A DNA stretch of 64,000 nucleotides from Rhodovulum kholense (GTDB taxonomy: Bacteria; Pseudomonadota; Alphaproteobacteria; Rhodobacterales; Rhodobacteraceae). Below are positions 40,553-50,794 of this stretch, piece after piece. How positions within the stretch are numbered: position 1 is the stretch's first letter; every line of letters begins with the position of its first letter. Where the stretch lies: assembly GCF_003053725.1 (NCBI RefSeq), contig NZ_QAYC01000009.1, positions 1 to 64,000 on the forward strand. The letters are read 5' to 3'. A model generated the notes under the pieces. The model did no database searches. It was given only the letters and a program-made list of their open reading frames with translations, and was not told the DNA's origin. Position numbers and translations under genes: made by a program.

Positions 40553-40559
40553 GGCCGTT

Positions 40560-41998
40560 GCGACCGGACCCGGGGTCCCAGCCAGGCCAGTTGGTGAAGG
40601 CGTCGGGATTGGCGACGTCGCCGCCACGCCCTGACAGGTCAACGTCCGCCCGCCCGACAGGGTGCGGGCGACGGGCCCCTCGTCGGGAACCATCAGCCGC
40701 ATCGTCCCGTCCGGCCCGCCCGAGAAGGTCCCGGTCGCGGTGACACGCTCGGTTTCGGCCTTCGGCCAGGTGGTGTGCATCTCGAACCGGACGGTGACCG
40801 CCTCACAGCCGGACGACGCGCGCGCGCCGATATTCCAGAACTCCACATCGGCTCTGATCGACCCGCAGGAGTCCTGAGCGAAAAAGCGCGCCGTGACCTT
40901 CTGGACCCGAAACGCCCCGCCCCGGGGGCGGCGCGGACGCGGGCACGCGCGGCCTTTTCGCCCCGCTGGCGGTCGCGCTCGGCCCGGGCGACCATCCCTG
41001 CGGCATCCTCGCGCGTCCGCGGCGACTGGTGCCGCCGCCTTTCGGCCGCATCCGCATCCCAAAGCACCAGCCGGTCATTGGCGGCATTGTCGGCCAGCAT
41101 CTGATTAAAGTGCCCGCGGTCGATCTCTCCGTCGCGCAGCCGCGCGTCGCGGGACGAAAGCTCGACCGGCAGCGTCGCAAGCGGCCGCGGCGTCCAGGCC
41201 GCTTACGCCCCGCTGGTTCGTCGCGAGTTCGCCGTGGAGCGCGTTCAAGCCCGGCCGGGCCATCACGGCGTCCTGCGCGGGGCTCTCGGTCAGCGCGGCC
41301 GGCCCGCGACCGGGTCCAGAGCATCGCTGCCGCCATCGCCAGCGCGCCGAACTGTCCTCGTCATAGCCGCCCCAGTCCCAGCCCCAGCCCGGCGCCTCGG
41401 CCCCGGGTGCCCCCCCGGCCGACGGCGGCCAGCGTCCGCGCCCCGTTCAGCCCGATGGCCAGCGGCACCGCCAGCCCCATGGCCTCCCACCCGGCGCGCC
41501 CGGCACCATCTCGACCGCCTCGACGGTCTCGGCCCCGGCCGACCAGCGGACCGGCAGCGCGGTATCGGCAAAGGGCTCGTAAAACGCCAAGACCGGCGCT
41601 GGACTGTCTGGCCCATGCACCGACGAGACCAAGCCCGAGATCGCCTCGGACAGGGTGTCGGCATCGCCTTCGGGGTCAAAGATCAGCGCGATCTGGGCCA
41701 GTTCGGCGCGGGCGGCGTCGCTGCCCCGGTTGGCCATCGCCTCGAAAAGCGCGCGCGCCGCAAGGGACCGGGAGGCCTCGGTCCGACCCAGCGCCTCGCG
41801 GGGGTCGAGCGCGGTGGCAGGCGGGGCCGGAGCGCTCGGTCTGTCCGGCTCGATGCCGTCGGCCAGTCGGGTTAAGCGGCGCCCCTCACGCTGCCCTGTC
41901 AACAGCACCGCTTCTTTTGCAATTGCCGCCCCCCTGGCGGCACCGGGCGAAACGTTGCGGCATTTCGGCTGGACCGGACCGAGCCGCCGCCGCATCAT
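40560..41998 (-). pseudogene. remnant of a membrane-associated protein gene, several frameshifts
   Basis: No single frame spans this stretch, but coherent protein-like pieces continue from frame to frame on the minus strand. In order: ALGRTEASRSLAARALFEAM and EGDADTLSEAISGLVSSVHG (41998 to about 41500); then a segment with EAMGLAVPLAIGLNGARTLA and GWGWDWGGYDEDS (about 41500-41370); then LTESPAQDAVMARPGLNALH (about 41300-41220); then LADNAANDRLVLWDADAAER (about 41100-41030); then KVTARFFAQDSCGSIRADVE, WNIGARASSGCEAVTVRFEM and GGPDGTMRLMVPDEGP (about 40900-40630); and finally NPDAFTNWPGWDPGSGR (about 40610-40565). At least five shifts are needed. The family was not recognised. Sequencing errors in G/C runs are an alternative explanation, but the neighbouring genes are intact. 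Confidence 0.6.
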
Positions 41999-42032
41999 GG
42001 GGGCAACGCCGTTCGGGCAGGAGGGGCCGGAC

Positions 42033-43259
42033 GTGTCCTATCTGCGATCCGACTGGCTGGCCGATCTGGATTTTCTCGAAGAGACGATCACACTTTGGTG
42101 GGCCGGCCGCGACCGTCATGCCGATTCTGACGGCGCCAACCCGGCGGCCGTCTTTTCGGTGCTGCGCACAGTCGACCCCGCAGGCGATCTCTGGGCCGGG
42201 GCGCGGGCGCTTCGCGACGGGCTCTGGGCGCTGGGCGATTGTCACCTGAGACTGGCCCCCAGCGTGATGGGGGCCGAGACCGGCTGGCTGTCGGGTCTGG
42301 TTTTCGCCCCCACCCCCGAGGGCCCGGTGCTTCTCTGGGCCGATCCTGCGATTTCGGCCTATCGGGCGGCCTCTGTCGGCGATCTCCTGACCGCCATCGA
42401 CGGCGTCCCGGCCGAAAAGGTTCTGGCGTCCCTCCGGCTGCGCCCCGGCTCGACGCCCCGGCAGAGGTACCTTTTTGCCCTGCAAAGCCTCTCGCACCGC
42501 GACTGCCTGCCGGGCGAGTCCCCCCTGCCCCGACGCCTGAGCCTGACCGATGCCCGCAGACGCGATCTGACGTTTGCGCCCGACTGGCGCGTGCAGGACC
42601 CCGCCGCCCCGCCGCCGCCTGCCGTACGCGCCCGGCGGATTGACGACCGGACCGGGCTGATCGCGATGCGCAGCTTCGCCTGCCGCGACCGGACGGGTCA
42701 GATCAGCGATGCCGAGATGGCGCGCCAGCTCGACGCCGCCTTTGCCGGGCTTGCGGGCTGCGACCGGCTGGTGATCGACCTGCGCGGCAATGGCGGCGGG
42801 CGCGACGAACAGGCCCGCATGCTGGCAGCAAGGCTGACCGGCGCGCCGCTGGTCTGGATGCGTCACGCCCATCCCGCCCCTTATGGCGGACAGCTCGGGC
42901 GGTTCGAGGATCTGATCCTCGCGCCCACAGCCACGCCCCAGCCCGCCCGGCTCCGGCTGCTGATCGACGCGGGCACCGCCTCGACCGCCGAGATCTGTGT
43001 GGCAGCCCTTGCCGCCCTGCCCGGCACGGTTCTTGTCGGCAGCCCAAGCGGCGGCGCCGTGGGCGATCCGGTCGAGTTCCGCCTGCCGCGGTCGCTTCTG
43101 GGGGTCTTCGTGCCCGTGGCCCGCTATGCGCGGCCCGGCACCGAGGCGCCGATCGAGGGCGCGGGGCTGGTCCCCGACATCGAGGCCGCGCCCGGGGCCT
43201 TCGATCTGCGCGAGGGCCGCGATCCGGTTCTGGACGCGGCGCTCGCCTCATTCGACTGA
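42033..43259 (+). CDS. S41 family (tail-specific type) peptidase
   Basis: 408 residues from a GTG at 42033 with AGGAGG 8 bp upstream; an ATG at 41997 is in frame but poorly spaced. There is no signal peptide from this start. After an N-terminal region with a PDZ-like VGDLLTAIDGVPAEKVLASL, the C-terminal S41 domain contains DRLVIDLRGNGGGRDEQARML and LLIDAGTASTAEICVAALAA, in which the Ser of TASTAE is the expected nucleophile, and then VGSPSGGAVGDPVEFRLP. It is convergent with the (Cys-Gly-Thr) repeat gene, 9 bp apart. It may process that protein, but the opposite strand means the link is not operonic. Confidence 0.85.
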   Translation: MSYLRSDWLADLDFLEETITLWWAGRDRHADSDGANPAAVFSVLRTVDPAGDLWAGARALRDGLWALGDCHLRLAPSVMGAETGWLSGLVFAPTPEGPVLLWADPAISAYRAASVGDLLTAIDGVPAEKVLASLRLRPGSTPRQRYLFALQSLSHRDCLPGESPLPRRLSLTDARRRDLTFAPDWRVQDPAAPPPPAVRARRIDDRTGLIAMRSFACRDRTGQISDAEMARQLDAAFAGLAGCDRLVIDLRGNGGGRDEQARMLAARLTGAPLVWMRHAHPAPYGGQLGRFEDLILAPTATPQPARLRLLIDAGTASTAEICVAALAALPGTVLVGSPSGGAVGDPVEFRLPRSLLGVFVPVARYARPGTEAPIEGAGLVPDIEAAPGAFDLREGRDPVLDAALASFD

Positions 43260-43268
43260 TCCGCGCCG

Positions 43269-43682
43269 CTATTTCTGCCGGCGATTGGCCAGCGTCAGGA
43301 TCATCGAGTTCATCTTCTCCATGTCGGAATGGAGCCGCAACAGATCGACCTGCGGCTTGGGCAGCAGCACCCCAAGCTCGCGGGCGATATTGATCGGAAT
43401 GTCGTCGGTCAGCGCCGCCGTCCCGCACGTGCCGCAGGTGCCACAGGTCCCGCAGGTCCCGCAGGTGCCGCAACTGGCGAGCACGTCCCATTCCTCGATC
43501 CGTTGCCCGGGTTTGAGGATCACTTCGATCTCGCTCAGATCCACCTGGGGCGGCTCGGCGCGGATGGTCTTGATCATCGCCTCCGCCAGCTCCTGCTGGA
43601 GCGCGTTGCGGAGCTTCTTCTTCTGCTCCTCGGGTAACTGCTCTGCAGTCACCTTCTTGAAGCCCTGGACTTCGTCAGCCAT
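43269..43682 (-). CDS. small protein with six Cys-Gly-Thr repeats, candidate modified peptide precursor
   Basis: 137 residues. Residues 1-70 are charged and helical (PEEQKKKLRNALQQELAEAM, then PPQVDLSEIEVILKPGQRIEEWDVLAS). Residues 71-88 are (Cys-Gly-Thr) repeated six times without error, and residues 89-137 are AALTDDIPINIARELGVLLP followed by a helical tail ending NRRQK. The six cysteines are the only ones in the protein. The gene overlaps the Fe-S aldo/keto reductase gene by 8 bp and is the last of a unit with a radical SAM/SPASM enzyme, so it is most likely their substrate. The cysteine block is in the middle rather than at the C-terminus, unlike most ribosomal peptide natural products. 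A metal-binding or cofactor-carrying peptide is the alternative. No family recognised. Confidence 0.8.
   Translation of the reverse strand: MADEVQGFKKVTAEQLPEEQKKKLRNALQQELAEAMIKTIRAEPPQVDLSEIEVILKPGQRIEEWDVLASCGTCGTCGTCGTCGTCGTAALTDDIPINIARELGVLLPKPQVDLLRLHSDMEKMNSMILTLANRRQK
43419..43472 (-). repeat. six 9 bp units coding for Cys-Gly-Thr
   Basis: 54 bp encoding (Cys-Gly-Thr)6. The units differ only at synonymous positions (TGC/TGT, GGC/GGG, ACC/ACG), which indicates selection to keep the peptide repeat and not very recent slippage. Confidence 0.95.
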
Positions 43683-44832
43683 GCGTATTTTCCTCCTCTG
43701 TCTGTCTGGAACCGGCTGGACGGGTGGCTTGGGTCAACCGCACATGCGCAAGCTGCAGCAGGCGGGCGATATCGAAATCCTCGGGGCAGACCTCGGCGCA
43801 TTTTCCGCAGCGCGCACAGGCCGAGGCATCGGGCTGCATCCGGGCATATTTGAACCGCGCGATCCCGGTCATGCCGAAGAAGCGGTCCTGATCGAGCAGG
43901 CGAAACACCTTGGGGATCTCGATCCCCTCGGGGCAGACGTCCAGACAGGCGGCACAGCGGGTGCATTCGCCGGGAGAGGCCGCCGCCACCCGGGCCTCGA
44001 GCGTCCGGCAGGCCTCGGGGTCCGGCCCGACGCCGATCCCGGCGGCGAGGTTCCGGCGCAGTTCGGTCCGGTTGGCCATGCCAAGCACGGCGGTCGCGAT
44101 GCCGGGCTGCATCAGTGCATAGCGGATCGCCCCCGACAGCGTGTCCTGCCCCGTGGCGGGATCGGCCAGAAACCCGAGCCGGGGGGCGCCATGCTTCATC
44201 TCGCCGCCCGCCAGCACCTTCATCACCACGACGCCCACGCCGTTGGCGCGCGCCGCCGGCAACAGCCGGTCGCGATAGTCGGAAATGGGCGAGCCGAACA
44301 CCGTCTCGCGGCCAAGCACGTTGAAGGGAAACATCACCACATCGAAGGCGCGCTCCTCGATGGCGCGCAGGATGACCTCGGTCGGGGCATGGAACGAGGC
44401 GCCGGTGGCGCGCACCAGACCCGCCGTCCGGGCCGCGACCGCCACATCGCAGAACCCGCCCAGATCGGTGCAAAGCTCATACTCGCGCATGGTCTCGACC
44501 ATGTGCGTCATCCAGAGGTCGATATGGTCCCGGCCCATGGTCCGAAGCGAGGTCTGCAGATCGCGCAGGCAATGCGGCCCGCCCCGCGCGCCGGTCTTGG
44601 TGGCGATGGTCAGCCCGTCGCGCACGCGGGGCGGCAGATGGGCGATCACCGCCTCGCCGTTCACGTAGCTGCGGGCGGTGTCGTAATAGGTGATGCCGCA
44701 GTCATAGGCCTCTTCCAGAAGCCCGGCCCAGTCGGCCGCGGCCCCATGGCGGAACGGGCTCGACCCGATCCCCATCGCCGAGACCTCGATCCCGGTCTTG
44801 CCCAGCGGGCGTCTGTCGAGAGCCAGCGCCAT
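43675..44832 (-). CDS. aldo/keto reductase with two C-terminal 4Fe-4S motifs
   Basis: 385 residues from the ATG at 44832, 4 bp after the radical SAM stop. The AKR barrel starts RRPLGKTGIEVSAMGIGSSP and contains the catalytic tyrosine region YYDTARSYVNGE, the lysine in TIATKTG and the His of WMTHMVETM. The C-terminus adds two ferredoxin-like cysteine sets, ECTRCAACLDVCPEGIEI and ACARCGKCAEVCPEDFDI, each Cx2Cx2Cx3CP, enough for two 4Fe-4S clusters. Such AKR-ferredoxin proteins are a known subgroup with mostly unknown substrates. Between a SPASM enzyme and the Cys-rich protein it could supply or remove electrons during peptide maturation, or reduce a product. The role is inferred. Confidence 0.92.
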   Translation of the reverse strand: MALALDRRPLGKTGIEVSAMGIGSSPFRHGAAADWAGLLEEAYDCGITYYDTARSYVNGEAVIAHLPPRVRDGLTIATKTGARGGPHCLRDLQTSLRTMGRDHIDLWMTHMVETMREYELCTDLGGFCDVAVAARTAGLVRATGASFHAPTEVILRAIEERAFDVVMFPFNVLGRETVFGSPISDYRDRLLPAARANGVGVVVMKVLAGGEMKHGAPRLGFLADPATGQDTLSGAIRYALMQPGIATAVLGMANRTELRRNLAAGIGVGPDPEACRTLEARVAAASPGECTRCAACLDVCPEGIEIPKVFRLLDQDRFFGMTGIARFKYARMQPDASACARCGKCAEVCPEDFDIARLLQLAHVRLTQATRPAGSRQTEEENTHG

Positions 44833-44836
44833 GGCC

Positions 44837-46252
44837 TCAGGCCTCGACGGCCCGGGCCGCGACGCTGCGGATCTGGTCGATCCGGACGATGGCCGCCTCG
44901 ACCAGCGCATGTTTCATCCGGCAATAATGCGGAAGCGGGTCGTCCGAACCGTGCCCGGTCTGCGACTGATGCAGGCAACCGCCGCCGCAAAGATACCGCG
45001 CCCAGCAGTCCCGGCAGACCGGGCGGTCGTCGACCATGGTCAGGAAGCGGCTGTCAAGCTCGGTCGGCCCCCTGTTCTCGGCGATGTTGGAATAGGGATC
45101 GCGATAGATCCGCTGGCATTCGTAGATGTTGCCATCGGGCGCCACCGTCACCTCGGACACGCCCGCGCCGCAGCCATAAACCACGCGCTGCTGGCGCAGG
45201 ATCTTGAGGATCGTGCCCTTCATTTCGTCGGGCAGGCCGGTCCAGGTCTCGAAGGCGCGGCCAAGATAGCGGTCGTAATGGGCCAGGAATTCTTCCCAGT
45301 CGGCCTCGTCGAACTGCGCCTCGCGGGCGTCGGTCGCCACCACCTCGAACGAGACCCTCTCGCCGCCCAGCGCGCTCAGCCCGCGGGTCACGGCATCGGG
45401 GTCCTTGTTGGCCCGGGTCAGCACCGCGCGCAGGTTGAAATCCGCCCCCTTCTCGGCCAGCCTTTTGATATTGGGCAGGATCGCGGGCATGGTCGGACGG
45501 CCGTTCTTGAAGGTCCGGAACCGGTCATGGGTGCGGCGGTCGCCATCGACGCTGACCTGCACCGTCACCCCGTGATCGACCAGAAAGCCCACCCTCTCTT
45601 CGTTCAGCAGCGTGCCGTTGGTGATCAGGTACTTGCTCAGGTCCTTGCCCTCGCGCGCGGCCCAGGCGTCGATCCGCTCGACGACATGGGTCAGCACCTC
45701 CCAGTTCAGCAGCGGCTCGCCGCCGTAAAGCTGCACATGCGCCTTCGGCCCTTCCTGATGGCGGAAGAACCAGTCCAGAACCTCGTCGGCCCGGTCGCGG
45801 GTCATGACGTTGGGCTTCTGGTAGATCGGCACGTCCTTTTCGAAGCAGTAGCTGCACCCCATGTTGCAGCCGCCCGCCAACATCAGGACGAGGTTCTTGA
45901 AGGGCGGCCGGCCGGGCCTCGGCACCGGCTCGCAGGACAACTCGCCCGCCACCAGCATCTCGAGGAAGCGCAGGTAATGGGCGCGGATCTCGGCCTCGGG
46001 CACCTCGCCCGCCAGATCCTCGACGATCCCGGGCAAGCTCAGCCGCGCCGCGCGCTCGAGAACCAGCGCCGCCGCCCGGTCGAGCTTGAAGATCGCGTAG
46101 GACCGGCAATCGAAGGCATAGTGCTGGCCGTCGCGGGCAAAGACATGCACCTCGACCGGCATCAGGTAGTCTGTCTGGGAAAGCGGCGTGGCAGAGGGGG
46201 TCTTGTGGCTTTCGCCTGCGGACGCGGGCGCAGTCGTGGCGGTAACGGGCAT
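44837..46252 (-). CDS. radical SAM/SPASM peptide maturase
   Basis: 471 residues from the ATG at 46252 (GAGG 6 bp upstream); a start at 46300 is less likely. An N-terminal recognition-like part (PVEVHVFARDGQHYAFDCRS) is followed by the radical SAM core with the cluster motif GGCNMGCSYCFEKD (Cx3Cx2C), YGGEPLLNW and the SAM-binding VQVSVDGD. The C-terminal SPASM region has YGCGAG, DGNIYECQR and CRDCWARYLCGGGCLHQ, then HYCRMKH, giving enough cysteines for one or two auxiliary clusters. This is the architecture of enzymes that form thioether or C-C bonds in peptides (for example SCIFF maturases). The likely substrate is the (Cys-Gly-Thr)6 protein two genes downstream. A strong promoter and an inverted repeat lie upstream. 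Confidence 0.93.
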   Translation of the reverse strand: MPVTATTAPASAGESHKTPSATPLSQTDYLMPVEVHVFARDGQHYAFDCRSYAIFKLDRAAALVLERAARLSLPGIVEDLAGEVPEAEIRAHYLRFLEMLVAGELSCEPVPRPGRPPFKNLVLMLAGGCNMGCSYCFEKDVPIYQKPNVMTRDRADEVLDWFFRHQEGPKAHVQLYGGEPLLNWEVLTHVVERIDAWAAREGKDLSKYLITNGTLLNEERVGFLVDHGVTVQVSVDGDRRTHDRFRTFKNGRPTMPAILPNIKRLAEKGADFNLRAVLTRANKDPDAVTRGLSALGGERVSFEVVATDAREAQFDEADWEEFLAHYDRYLGRAFETWTGLPDEMKGTILKILRQQRVVYGCGAGVSEVTVAPDGNIYECQRIYRDPYSNIAENRGPTELDSRFLTMVDDRPVCRDCWARYLCGGGCLHQSQTGHGSDDPLPHYCRMKHALVEAAIVRIDQIRSVAARAVEA

Positions 46253-46356
46253 CGCACACCTCGGGGTCAATGACTTTCGGGAACAAACGCCACTCGGCAC
46301 GCACTGCCAGGCTCGGCAAACGCAGAGGACAGAAACAAATTGCCTTTAATTTCATT

Positions 46357-46385
46357 ATTATGCGTGGCACTTGACGCTAAGTCAA
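46357..46385 (-). promoter_or_regulatory. promoter of the radical SAM-AKR-peptide unit
   Basis: On the minus strand TTGACT (46385-46380), exactly 17 bp spacer, CATAAT (46362-46357). It is one of the best sigma-70-type promoters in the window, in an AT-rich patch that stands out against the surrounding GC. It overlaps the larC stop codon, so the maturation genes can be transcribed apart from the lar genes. Confidence 0.7.
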
Positions 46386-46386
46386 G
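46370..46386. promoter_or_regulatory. operator-like inverted repeat over the -35 element
   Basis: CTTGAC-N5-GTCAAG, a perfect 6 bp inverted repeat covering the -35 box of the radical SAM promoter and the end of larC. The 5 bp spacer does not fit FNR/CRP (N4/N6). The binding protein is unknown; repression is the likely mode because of the overlap. Confidence 0.5.
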
Positions 46387-47167
46387 ATGACTCGCTGTCG
46401 GGCCCGGCGGGATCGTGCGGCCGGTGTTTCGCGGGGGCCGGGACCGCATCGCCCAGCGCGAAAAGCGCGCCGTTCGGCACCCCCGGCAGCACCCGCCCGC
46501 CATAGATCCGGGCGGTCTGTCGAATCACCATTTCGGGCCAGTCGCCGAAGACGAAACCGGCTGCGCGCAGGAAGGCGATGGCGGTCGGGGTCACGGTCTC
46601 GCCGATCGAGGCAAGGCCGCAGACCGGCACCCCGCGCAGAAGCTCCTGCACCGCAGGCGCGGGCGTCGGCAACAGGCCATGGGCACAGCGGACCGTCCCG
46701 TCGCACAGCGGCAGAGGGCTGCAGACCAGCCGGTCAGGCGCGATCCGGACCAGAAGCTCGGCCGCGAGGCAGGTGTCGAGGATCGAATCGAGCGCGCCGA
46801 CCTCGTGAAACGCGATCTTCCCGGGCGGGCAGCCATGAACCGCCCCCTCGGCCTCGGCCAGAAGCGTGAAGGCCCGCGCCGCGACCGCCTTCGCCGGGGT
46901 CGCGAGACGGCTCGCCTCGATCAACGCCAGGATGTCGCCCAGATGGCGATGGGCATGTTCATGCGGCAGCCGGACCCGCGCCTGCCAGCCCGAGATGCCC
47001 TGCAAGGCATGCGGCCGGATCTCGACCGCGCCGTGCGGCAGCGGCAGACCGGTCGCGGCCAGAACCGAGCCGATATCGGCCGCCTGACCCGCCATCACCG
47101 CCAGCCCCGCCAGCAGCATGTCGCCGCTCAGCCCCGAAGGCGTCCGGATCACCAGAACCCCGCTCAC
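46382..47167 (-). CDS. larC: LarC-type nickel insertion protein, short form (N-terminal part only)
   Basis: 261 residues from a GTG at 47167 that overlaps the larB stop (GTGA). LarC inserts nickel into the pincer nucleotide. The sequence has the family pattern: PSGLSGDMLLAGLAVMAG, HAHRHLGDILALIEASRL, AARAFTLLAEAEGAVHGCPP, IAFHEVGALDSILDTCLAAE, then LPTPAPAVQELLRGVPV and GETVTPTAIAFLR. LarC is usually about 400 residues. This one stops after the first domain and lacks the C-terminal (LarC2) part, and no second fragment follows within the 129 bp before the radical SAM gene. The C-terminus is a short Pro/His/Ser tail. Confidence 0.88.
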   Translation of the reverse strand: MSGVLVIRTPSGLSGDMLLAGLAVMAGQAADIGSVLAATGLPLPHGAVEIRPHALQGISGWQARVRLPHEHAHRHLGDILALIEASRLATPAKAVAARAFTLLAEAEGAVHGCPPGKIAFHEVGALDSILDTCLAAELLVRIAPDRLVCSPLPLCDGTVRCAHGLLPTPAPAVQELLRGVPVCGLASIGETVTPTAIAFLRAAGFVFGDWPEMVIRQTARIYGGRVLPGVPNGALFALGDAVPAPAKHRPHDPAGPDSESS

Positions 47168-47799
47168 CGTGCCCGTGCCTCAAGGATCCGAAGCACCGCC
47201 GAGGCCGCGCCGAAGCCGTTGTCGATATTGCACACCAGCACCCCCTGGGCGCAGCTGGCCAGCATCGCGTTCAGCGCCGTGCGCCCGCCCTCTGCCGCGC
47301 CATAGCCGACCGAGGTCGGCACCCCGATCACCGGCACGCCCACCAGCCCGCCGATCACCGACACCAGCGCCCCGTCCATGCCCGCCACCACGACCACCGC
47401 ATCGCTGTCGCGGATGCTCTCGATCTGTTCCTCCAGCCGCCAGAGCCCGGCCACGCCGATATCGGCGATCAGGTCCGGCGAAAGCCCGCCGAAGCGGAGC
47501 GTGCGCAGCGCCTCCAGCGCCACCGGCAGGTCGCCGGTGCCCGCCGTCACCACCCGCACCCTACCCGTCCGCGCAGGCAGACAGCCATTGACGATGGCGG
47601 TGCGCGAGGCCGGGTCGTAATCCTTGGGCGGGGCGGCAAGCGCGGCATGACGCTCGGGCGCCAGCCGGGTCAGAAGCGTGGGCCGGCCCTGCAGCGCCCC
47701 GAGGATCGCGTCGAGATCGGCCAGCGCCTTGCCCTCGCAGAGGATCGCCTCGGGCTGGCCGATCCGGCGCGGCCGGTCGTGATCGAGCCGCACCCTCAT
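47164..47799 (-). CDS. larB: LarB, pyridinium dicarboxylate nucleotide synthase (nickel-pincer pathway)
   Basis: 211 residues. LarB carboxylates and cleaves nicotinate adenine dinucleotide to give pyridinium-3,5-biscarboxylate mononucleotide. The N-terminus (EAILCEGKALADLDAILGAL) precedes a PurE-like C-terminal half with VVTAGTGDLPVALEALRTLRFGG, DIGVAGLWRL, DAVVVVAGMDGALVSVIGGL and VPVIGVPTSVGYGAAEGGRTAL. The PurE-like substrate loop TSVGYGA is intact. The start overlaps the larE stop by ATGA. Confidence 0.95.
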   Translation of the reverse strand: MRVRLDHDRPRRIGQPEAILCEGKALADLDAILGALQGRPTLLTRLAPERHAALAAPPKDYDPASRTAIVNGCLPARTGRVRVVTAGTGDLPVALEALRTLRFGGLSPDLIADIGVAGLWRLEEQIESIRDSDAVVVVAGMDGALVSVIGGLVGVPVIGVPTSVGYGAAEGGRTALNAMLASCAQGVLVCNIDNGFGAASAVLRILEARAR

Positions 47800-48623
47800 C
47801 GCGCCCCGCGAAACGCCCGGCCCGGCGCATAGGGCCGCGGATCGAGCCTCAGCTCACGGATGCCCGGGTCGATGGCGCGAGCCTCGGCGGCAACACAGGC
47901 GATCAGCCCGGGACCGATCCGCGCGCCCTCGCCCGCCTCGACCTCGATCAGCATCAGATCCCCCCGGCGGCGGCAGCGCAGCACCGAAAGCCCCGTTTCG
48001 GCCCGCAGCCGGTCCTCGGCCCGCTCGACCGCGCGCAGCCGTTCGGGCGTGACCGCAAGCCCGGTGTACAGTCGGCTGGCCAGGCAGGGCGAGGCGGGCA
48101 GATCGGCGAAGGAAAGCCCCAGCGCACGCGCCATGCCGCGGATGCGCGCCTTGTCGATCCCCGCCTCGACATAGGGGTGCCGCACCCCCAGCGCCTCGGC
48201 GGCGCGCAAGCCTGGGCGATACTCGCCCAGATCGTCGGCATTGGTGCCCGAAAGGATCGCGACCGGCCCGTCGACGGCGGCCGTCACCTGCCGCAAGGTG
48301 GAATAAAGCCGCTGCTTGCAGAAGAAACAGCGGTCGACCGGGTTGGCCAGATAGTCGGGATCGGAAAACTCGCCCGCATCGACCAGATCCAGCGCCCAGC
48401 CCTCGGCCCCGGCCTGTGCGCGGACCCGGGCGGTGGCGGCGGCGGGTACGGCGGGGCTGACGGCATGCACGATGCGCGTGGCTTTGGGCGCCTGCCGATG
48501 GGCAAGCGTGGCCAGAAGCAGGCTGTCGATGCCGCCGCTGCAGGCCACCGCCCGCAAGGGCAGTCCTGCCAGCACGGCGCTAAGCCGCTCAGGCAAAGCG
48601 GGCTGCGGGGCCGGGCCGGGCAT
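47796..48623 (-). CDS. larE: LarE, sulfur transferase of the nickel-pincer pathway
   Basis: 275 residues. LarE is a PP-loop ATP pyrophosphatase that swaps the two carboxylates for thiocarboxylates, in some species using its own cysteine as sulfur donor. The PP-loop reads VACSGGIDSLLLATLAH. PVDRCFFCKQRLYSTLRQV follows, with CFFCK as the cysteine motif (the LarE donor cysteine region), and then ILSGTNADDLGEYRPG and PASPCLASRLYTGL. With Cys at the usual positions it could be either sacrificial or cluster-bound type. Its start overlaps nadD by 35 bp. Confidence 0.95.
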   Translation of the reverse strand: MPGPAPQPALPERLSAVLAGLPLRAVACSGGIDSLLLATLAHRQAPKATRIVHAVSPAVPAAATARVRAQAGAEGWALDLVDAGEFSDPDYLANPVDRCFFCKQRLYSTLRQVTAAVDGPVAILSGTNADDLGEYRPGLRAAEALGVRHPYVEAGIDKARIRGMARALGLSFADLPASPCLASRLYTGLAVTPERLRAVERAEDRLRAETGLSVLRCRRRGDLMLIEVEAGEGARIGPGLIACVAAEARAIDPGIRELRLDPRPYAPGRAFRGAR

Positions 48624-49194
48624 AGGGCTGCTCTGTCATCAGATAAGAGATCACCGCCGAGGGGCAGAGCCCGTCAAGCGGTCCGCCCGCCGCCAGACGC
48701 GCGCGGATCTGGGTCGACGAGAGGTCGGGCAAGGGTCCGCCAAGCCGCTCGACCCAGGGCGGCGCCGCGTCGAGCGGATGACCGGGCCGGTCCAGCGCAA
48801 CGATACGCGCAGAGGCCCGGATCGCGTCGATACCGTGCCAGCGCGGCAACAGGGCCAGCTTGTCGCTGCCGATCAGCAGAACGATGTCAGTGCCCGCCGG
48901 AAGCGTCCTGTGAAACAGCGCCAGGGTATCGACGGCAAAGGGCGAAGCGCCAGGGCGGCATTCGGCATCGCTGACCTCAAGCCAGGGACGGCCCTCGCAC
49001 AGCAGCCGCAGCATCGCAAGCCGATGCGCCGCCGAGGCGACGGCCTGCGCCTTGGGGCCGGGCCGCGTGGCGGTCGAGCCTGCGGGGATCAAGATGACGC
49101 GGTCCAGGTCAAGCGCCTGCCGGGCCAGCACCGCCGCCGCCAGATGCCCCTCGTGAACCGGATCGAAGCTTCCGCCGAACAAAGCGACGCGCAC
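48589..49194 (-). CDS. nadD: nicotinate mononucleotide adenylyltransferase (NadD family)
   Basis: 201 residues. NadD makes nicotinate adenine dinucleotide from NaMN and ATP. It begins ALFGGSFDPVHEGHLAAAVLA, with the nucleotidyl-transferase signature GSFDPxHxGH, and carries LIGSDKLALLPRWHGID, ARIVALDRPGHPLD and the C-terminal LSSTQIRARLAAGG motif. The product is the substrate of LarB, encoded two genes downstream. It may be the only nadD or a dedicated second copy; the sequence cannot decide. First gene of the leftward nadD-larE-larB-larC unit. Confidence 0.93.
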   Translation of the reverse strand: MRVALFGGSFDPVHEGHLAAAVLARQALDLDRVILIPAGSTATRPGPKAQAVASAAHRLAMLRLLCEGRPWLEVSDAECRPGASPFAVDTLALFHRTLPAGTDIVLLIGSDKLALLPRWHGIDAIRASARIVALDRPGHPLDAAPPWVERLGGPLPDLSSTQIRARLAAGGPLDGLCPSAVISYLMTEQPYARPGPAARFA

Positions 49195-49244
49195 CGCACC
49201 CTCCCCACCGAAAGCCCGTCTTCCGCTGGCTCATGGTAGCAGAG

Positions 49245-49266
49245 GCGGGGCGTCCTGTCGCCCCGC
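49245..49266 (-). terminator. stem-loop after ggpS
   Basis: GCGGGGCG / CGCCCCGC with a 6-base loop in the 97 bp between ggpS and nadD. It is T-poor but separates the two leftward units; the nadD promoter must lie here or transcription reads through. Confidence 0.55.
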
Positions 49267-49291
49267 AAGGTTCCGCTGCGTCAGGAAAAGA

Positions 49292-50794
49292 TCACGCGGC
49301 GGGCAAGGCGGCCGCGCCCAGCGTCGGACCGGACAGCGCCTCCATCTGATGGTTGGCCCAGAACCGGACGTCGTGGCGATGCACCACATCGCGAAGCGCC
49401 GCCATGCGGTCGCGGCGTTCGGCCGTCGGCATGTCCAGCGCCTGGGCGATGGCGCTGTCCATCGAGCGGTGCGAGAACGGGTTGGTCAGCAGCGCCGCCC
49501 CCATCTCGACCGCGGCGCCGGCGAATTCCGACAAGACCAGCACCCCGTCGCCATCGACCCGCGCGGCGCAGAATTCCTTGCAGACCAGGTTCATCCCGTC
49601 GGCAAGCGGCGTGATCCAGGCGACATCGGCGGCGCGGTAATAGGCCACCAGATCCTCGAACGGGATCGCGCGCGAAATCAGAACGATGGGTTGCCAGTCG
49701 AGGCTGCCGAAACGGCCGTTGATCCGCCCCGCCATCTGTTCCAGCTCGTTCTGGATATTCTCGTAGACGGTCATGTTGCGGTTCGCGGGCACCGAGACAT
49801 GCATCAGCCGGATCTTGCCGCGCAGATCGGGCTGGGCCTCCAGCAGGCGTTCATAGCTCAGCAGCTGGTCGATCCCGCCCTTGGTGTAATCGGTGCGCCC
49901 GACCGACAGCAGAAGCTTGGCGCCGCCCATTTCCGCGCGGATCTCTTCCGCACGGCGGGCGGTTTCCTCGCGCCGCGCGACCGCGTCGATGTAATCGGCA
50001 TCGACCCCGACGGGCGAGGCCTGCACCGCCACCCGCCGGTCTTCATAGACCAGTTCGGTCGGCACGCTGCGTTCGGAAAGCGCGGTCACTTCGGCGGCGA
50101 ATTCGGGCTCGACCTTCTGGCGCGCCGTCACCTCGACATCGAGAAGGCTGCGCGCGGCCGAGACGAAATTCGCCACATAGCGCGGGATGTGAAAGCCCAC
50201 CACGTCGCAGGCCAGCAGGCTTTGCAGGATCTCCTTGCGCCAGGGCAGCACGTTGAACGTGTCGGCCGCCGGAAACGGCGTGTGGTGGAAGAAGCTGATC
50301 TTCACGTCGGGGCGCAGGGTCCGCAGATAGCCAGGCACCAGCCACAGATTGTAGTCATGTACCCAGACCACCGCGCCCTCGGCGGCCTCGGCGGCGGCGG
50401 CCTCGGCGAAGGCCCAGTTCACCTCGCGAAAGGTCGGCCAGTCGACGGGGTCGTAATTGTAGCGCTCCTTGAAGGAATGCAGGATCGGCCAGAAGGCCTC
50501 TTTCGAGGTGACGTGATAAAAGCTGCTGACCTGTTCGGCCGTCAGCGGCAGCCGCGAGACCGTGTACTTGCCGAAAGCGTCGTCGACCTCGATCACCCGC
50601 TCGAAATCGGGATTGGCCGGGTCTTCGGCCTGTTTCCAGGCGATCCAGGCGCCTTTCTCGAACCGACCGAAGAAGCTTTTCAGGGTCGGCACGATGCCGT
50701 TCGGGCTCTTGTTCTCTCGCAGGACGATCTTTCCGTCTTCCTCCACCTCCTCGTAGGGCTGGCGGTGATAGACGATGACAAGATCCGATGGCAT
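49292..50794 (-). CDS. ggpS: glucosylglycerol-phosphate synthase
   Basis: 500 residues. GgpS joins ADP-glucose and glycerol-3-phosphate to form the phosphate of the compatible solute glucosylglycerol. The family is close to trehalose-6-phosphate synthase (OtsA), but the N-terminus YHRQPYEEVEEDGKIVLRENK followed by SPNGIVPTLKSFFGRFEKGAW and LTAEQVSSFYHVTSKEAFWPI matches the cyanobacterial GgpS as I remember it and not OtsA. WVHDYNLWLVPGYL, FHHTPFPAADTFNVLPWR, VGFHIPRYVANF, LSVGRTDYTKGG and DGMNLVCKEFCA are the GT20 active-site blocks. The presence of gpsA and a HAD phosphatase in the same operon agrees with glycerol-3-phosphate as acceptor. It is 3 bp after the phosphatase gene. Confidence 0.9.
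   Translation of the reverse strand: MPSDLVIVYHRQPYEEVEEDGKIVLRENKSPNGIVPTLKSFFGRFEKGAWIAWKQAEDPANPDFERVIEVDDAFGKYTVSRLPLTAEQVSSFYHVTSKEAFWPILHSFKERYNYDPVDWPTFREVNWAFAEAAAAEAAEGAVVWVHDYNLWLVPGYLRTLRPDVKISFFHHTPFPAADTFNVLPWRKEILQSLLACDVVGFHIPRYVANFVSAARSLLDVEVTARQKVEPEFAAEVTALSERSVPTELVYEDRRVAVQASPVGVDADYIDAVARREETARRAEEIRAEMGGAKLLLSVGRTDYTKGGIDQLLSYERLLEAQPDLRGKIRLMHVSVPANRNMTVYENIQNELEQMAGRINGRFGSLDWQPIVLISRAIPFEDLVAYYRAADVAWITPLADGMNLVCKEFCAARVDGDGVLVLSEFAGAAVEMGAALLTNPFSHRSMDSAIAQALDMPTAERRDRMAALRDVVHRHDVRFWANHQMEALSGPTLGAAALPAA

Follow-up and report, generated by a model that had tools for sequence, protein, structure and literature searches.

Which protein uses the nickel-pincer nucleotide (NPN) in a genome where no LarA racemase is found? 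The question is raised by a locus of Rhodovulum kholense, contained in the first 64,000 nucleotides of contig NZ_QAYC01000009.1 (the window), in which nadD, larE, larB and larC are followed by genes for a radical SAM/SPASM protein, an aldo/keto reductase (AKR) with ferredoxin domains and a Cys-Gly-Thr (CGT) repeat protein. According to the sections consulted of a published study (PMC11796402), about 15% of the analysed genomes, including many cyanobacteria, possess larB, larE and larC without larA, and the protein that uses the cofactor in such genomes had yet to be identified; LarA-less lar genes are therefore already known. The first-pass annotation of the window, made from the sequence alone, had read the seven genes as one joined system whose cofactor serves another product of the locus, such as the AKR or the repeat protein. 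We reasoned instead, at a probability of about 0.55, that an island of ~8.7 kb was acquired as a unit, and that it carries two co-inherited, separable modules plus a protease, in which the modules need not act on each other. Hereafter, module 1 refers to the radical SAM, AKR and CGT genes, and module 2 to nadD and the lar genes.

All seven genes were confirmed on the minus strand by the open reading frames (ORFs) of the contig and by family profiles, with the span and order that the annotation had assigned to them (Table 1). Its statement that LarA is lacking held as well, since a profile search of the genome contigs with PF09861 yielded no LarA anywhere in this genome (G000; 4.46 Mb, 99.94% complete) nor in that of the sister species (G309), the contig of which matches that of Rhodovulum visakhapatnamense JA181 (L011). 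Among 14 control genomes the same search matched two, T. maritima and M. acetivorans, and in relatives it picked up divergent homologues that score as low as 21 bits, upon which a hidden LarA was rejected; a LarA of very divergent sequence could still be present in either genome. The island nadD was also considered as the only copy of the genome, and this was rejected because a second nadD, ~31% identical, lies on contig C3.

The conserved residues of module 2 were then compared with those of other family members. LarB keeps 52 of 53 columns conserved among 25 other LarB sequences, and LarE, compared with 8 others, keeps 49 of 53, with SGGIDS and the cysteines C99, C102 and C180 among them. 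The early steps of the pathway look intact on these residues, and the last one looks unusual. LarC covers positions 1-229 of the 375 positions of PF01969 (Ni_insertion) in both G000 and G309, and the LarC proteins of all four comparison genomes extend to positions 333-374. Profile searching with PF01969 found no LarC2 part elsewhere in G000 or G309; a split-off LarC2 was rejected, as the second match in G000, weak at 11.4 bits and interrupted by stops, falls on LarC1 positions. The LarC1 part retains 27 of 34 columns conserved among 38 other LarC sequences, the changes being F18L, A21G, G155C, G196A, G219A, G221I and R235L; residues 1-236 were used here, for the full-length alignment smeared the LarC tail over the LarC2 region. 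Among 398 genomes of the phylum, 51 match the island LarC, with an open frame of 265 amino acids in G000, 176 in G1047 and 392-583 in the other 49, lengths that are upper bounds, since the frame in G309 spans 506 amino acids and yet its LarC reads 261 from the same start. The CTP site is carried by LarC2. CTP is used by LarC (PMC11796402, sections consulted), and the iron-sulfur CXXC-C type of LarE is that described for T. maritima LarE (PMC9283937, likewise in part). Because LarC2 was not found and LarC1 residues are changed, standard NPN as the product is in question, a point that the first-pass annotation had missed in naming nadD-larE-larB-larC as the NPN pathway. Its gene assignments are supported.

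Module 1 looks like an unannotated class of operon of the type that yields ribosomally synthesized and post-translationally modified peptides (RiPPs), common to an alphaproteobacterium and an actinobacterium. The best NCBIfam match of the radical SAM protein, TIGR04064, scores 193.3 bits, where the cut-off is 518.7. Of its 80 NCBIfam matches, the best 25 all lie under cut-off, and many of these are SPASM peptide maturases; the nearest kinds are nif11, PapB, QHNDH and SCIFF maturases (best E 6e-57 to 7e-48), and a relative is found in the PDB (5wgg, E 1e-32). The protein has the radical SAM domain and SPASM-type cysteines in common with these maturases, whereas it falls far under the curated cut-offs and has as partners a protein with a cysteine at every third residue and a ferredoxin-bearing AKR. 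Its CX3CX2C motif (C129, C133 and C136) is invariant in three homologues together with seven further cysteines, which we take to be those of the SPASM-type cluster, and its N-terminus gives a weak match to PqqD (PF05402; E 0.0035, 18.1 bits versus a cut-off of 23.4). AKR residues D51, Y56, K79 and H110, presumably catalytic, are also invariant in three homologues. The CGT protein, whose start overlaps the AKR stop behind AGGAGG, finds matches of E 0.04 at best in NCBIfam, Pfam and PHROGs. An N-terminal part containing L-x-P-G-Q and a W is common to four homologues, where it precedes a variable Cys-X-Thr array, an arrangement such as a leader and a core would have, and the protein may be the substrate of the maturase.

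Does module 1 depend on the lar genes? A scan of an 84,980-species collection for the radical SAM protein, conducted with six short peptides that moderately diverged relatives may escape, gave 23 loci, namely one at 96% in R. visakhapatnamense, one at 59% in Nocardioides sp. URHA0032, and 21 that do not exceed 32%. Besides the radical SAM protein, the Nocardioides locus (L012) encodes the AKR (62%) and, in tandem, two homologues of the CGT protein (45% and 41%), whose cores contain 6 and 10 cysteines. No match to lar or nadD was found in 21 kb around this module 1, which lies on contig C13, while larB and a full-length larC are on C10 and a LarA homologue is on C14; LarE gave no match within 15 kb of that larC, the stretch to which the search was confined. 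The tandem Cys-X-Thr precursors occupy L012:12530-13392, the second one mixing CGT and CAT units. Directly behind them, at L012:13557-16600, ORFs by eye resemble genes for a Tad/type IV secretion ATPase and TadB/TadC.

Module 1 is known from two independent occurrences. Precursors with at least four Cys-every-third units were sought in the other 21 scan loci, some of them short, and the hits in L021 and L033, the only ones, were rejected as chance-like runs right behind a stop codon. At E<=1e-30, searches with the radical SAM protein matched 9 of 295 family genomes, of which one is its own and eight show 28-32% identity; at class level they retrieved no further module 1 (1 of 385 genomes at 1e-40, its own), nor did they in the Nocardioides family (1 of 294 at 1e-60, URHA0032 itself). 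Among plasmids, the radical SAM protein matched 9 records at 33% or less, the AKR one record at 31.6% and the CGT protein none (low-complexity filter on), and viral contigs gave three radical SAM loci at 28-29% and no CGT protein. As in the R. kholense protein, the best 25 of 74 NCBIfam matches of the Nocardioides radical SAM homologue are under cut-off.

The distribution of module 2 was examined as well. Within Rhodovulum, the radical SAM protein is present in 2 of 16 genomes and LarC in the same 2, a co-occurrence that counts as one event because the carriers are close sisters. Of 295 genomes sampled from the family, 9 have LarC, and in each of the eight besides R. kholense larC has a LarA homologue no more than 6 kb away (seven over cut-off; that of G175 is below it, at 21.2 bits). 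The lar proteins of these relatives are 33-57% identical to those of the island (in L057, larC alone matched), and the stretches fetched around their larC genes contain no match to nadD. In one relative the LarA homologue by larC is split over two open frames (G013:C1:3474725-3475335, in L055), a possible frameshift. All plasmid records of LarC (97) and LarB (100) are below 60% identity. LarC is present in all three genomes with module 1, two of which are sisters, a count whose weight depends on how common LarC is in the family of Nocardioides. Independent inheritance of the two parts, and a larA beside the lar genes of relatives, had been named by the first-pass annotation as observations that would speak against a joined system. 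Module 1 does occur without adjacent lar genes, and LarA does stand beside larC in eight of eight relatives; yet the lar set of the island was never seen apart from module 1, and the relatives' lar proteins are diverged.

The only sigma-70-like site in 43000-49400 (TTGACT-17-CATAAT; 0.3 expected) falls at the boundary of the modules, past larC and ahead of the radical SAM gene, and the sister carries TTGACT-17-GATAAT in the same place. Since this promoter-like site separates the two genes, they are probably in separate transcription units, i.e. two operons. The gene order of the annotation stands, while its single row of seven genes would be two operons, accompanied in the same island by an S41 peptidase.

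Between the two species, the ratio of nonsynonymous to synonymous substitution rates (dN/dS) is 0.03 for CGT, 0.11 for both the radical SAM and the AKR genes, 0.13 for larE and 0.15 for larB, and highest for nadD (0.226; 196 of 201 codons) and larC (0.245). The genes are under purifying selection, and none looks like a pseudogene.

Taken together, the reading as two separable modules is favoured by the Nocardioides locus, the promoter-like site, the kinship of the maturase with nif11, PapB, QHNDH and SCIFF maturases and with 5wgg, the conserved LarB and LarE residues, the purifying selection and an empty island site in two relatives. Several points weigh on the other side. A joined system would have just such a makeup, with both modules on one island, a nadD of its own and no LarA found elsewhere; LarC accompanies module 1 in three of three genomes; two independent occurrences provide a single unlinked case; and the promoter, a match to the consensus that falls short of proof, may be read through from larC.

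The strongest competitor, which we regard as less likely, is the joined system itself. In it, the product of NadD2, LarB, LarE and LarC1, a thiocarboxylated pyridinium nucleotide or a nickel-pincer nucleotide, would bind to, or become attached to, the Cys-X-Thr protein or the AKR and so create a hydride-transfer or metal centre independent of LarA. The same-strand arrangement on one island, the extra nadD, the lack of a detected LarA, the sharing of both modules by the same two Rhodovulum genomes and the LarC count all fit such a system, as does the lack of an identified user protein in LarA-less genomes (PMC11796402, sections consulted). It is opposed by the Nocardioides module 1, which has no lar genes nearby and whose genome keeps larB-larC and LarA on other contigs, by the promoter-like site between the modules, and by the dependence of the LarC count on how common LarC is in that family. 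A functional link between the modules is plausible, if the less probable case, and forms the weakest point of the mechanism. A more specific form, in which a LarC2-less LarC1 makes a variant pincer or a bis-thiocarboxylate pyridinium nucleotide, with the modified Cys-X-Thr protein as its carrier or the AKR as its binding partner, appears doubtful. A third reading takes the lar genes for a relic, in which LarA was lost first and LarC2 next, with the remainder decaying beside an unrelated RiPP operon. It would agree with the missing LarC2 in G000 and G309, the seven changed LarC1 columns and the high ranking of larC and nadD in dN/dS, but is improbable given that the frames of all four genes are intact in both species (dS 0.22-0.26, dN/dS 0.13-0.25) and that LarB and LarE keep 52 and 49 of 53 conserved columns.

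On the preferred reading, that of two separable modules, the module 1 maturase, probably via its PqqD-like domain, would bind the repeat protein at its conserved N-terminal part and modify the Cys-X-Thr repeats, most likely with thioether cross-links as in ranthipeptide-type relatives. The AKR would carry out a redox step on the product, which the S41 peptidase may trim. Module 2 would follow the known pathway from nicotinic acid adenine dinucleotide (NaAD) through pyridinium-3,5-biscarboxylic acid mononucleotide (P2CMN) to pyridinium-3,5-bisthiocarboxylic acid mononucleotide (P2TMN), and would end in either NPN, by a LarC2-free route, or a related nucleotide, a product that would not be used by any LarA.

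Table 1. Features of the gyrB-otsA island of R. kholense (window coordinates).
Feature	Position	Strand	Evidence
nadD, second genomic copy	48589..49194	-	TIGR00482, 133.8 bits (cut-off 112.45)
larE, PP-loop sulfur transferase, CXXC-C (iron-sulfur) type	47796..48623	-	TIGR00268, 232 bits (cut-off 150)
larB	47164..47799	-	NF033503, 231.3 bits (cut-off 175)
larC, LarC1 half only, 261 aa	46382..47167	-	TIGR00299, 153.9 bits (cut-off 90)
Sigma-70-like promoter, larC/radical SAM boundary	46357..46385	-	Consensus match
Radical SAM/SPASM protein, weak PqqD-like N-terminus	44840..46252	-	Pfam Radical_SAM over cut-off
AKR, C-terminal ferredoxin domains	43675..44832	-	Pfam Aldo_ket_red and several 4Fe-4S models
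CGT repeat protein, proposed precursor	43269..43682	-	Six C-G-T units; conserved N-terminal part
S41 family peptidase, convergent with the CGT gene	42033..43259	+	PF03572, E 5e-21
Island between gyrB and otsA, ~8.7 kb	40553..49243		Comparison with two other Rhodovulum genomes

The starts of the radical SAM and AKR genes in Table 1 are likelier, by eye and in agreement with the sister sequence, than those of the longer ORFs (46300 and 44910). The empty site is seen in Rhodovulum G301 and G307, where the gyrB and otsA alignments are separated by 184 and 204 bp, respectively; four further fetched Rhodovulum genomes aligned at the otsA side only and were uninformative, and 8 of the 16 have no otsA match. 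No direct repeat linking both island ends was found. The S41 peptidase has an 89% identical copy in the sister island and no match in the Nocardioides module 1 locus. Between gyrB and the peptidase gene (40553-41900), protein-like pieces are scattered over the minus-strand frames of a stretch that exceeds its counterpart in the sister by ~0.9 kb and may be a decayed gene.

How does the island compare with known systems? With the NPN pathway of LarA racemases it shares LarB, LarE and LarC1 over curated cut-offs, here with the gene for the substrate-making NadD adjoining, and it differs in that no LarA was found, in a LarC without LarC2, in its own nadD and in the divergence from relatives given above. 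With LarA-less larBCE genomes, such as the cyanobacteria known to us from the description in PMC11796402 (sections consulted), it shares pathway genes without LarA; here, in contrast, these lie on an island with a RiPP-type operon and include LarC1 only. The annotation knew of no described system with this set, and none was found in the open-licence papers searched, in which no title describes the LarC1-only state or the adjoining operon.

The island thus bears on the published question of which protein uses the cofactor where LarA is absent. The LarC1-only protein raises a second question, whether nickel insertion without LarC2 is possible. If the user was co-inherited, the island would narrow the candidates for it to four proteins in two sister species.

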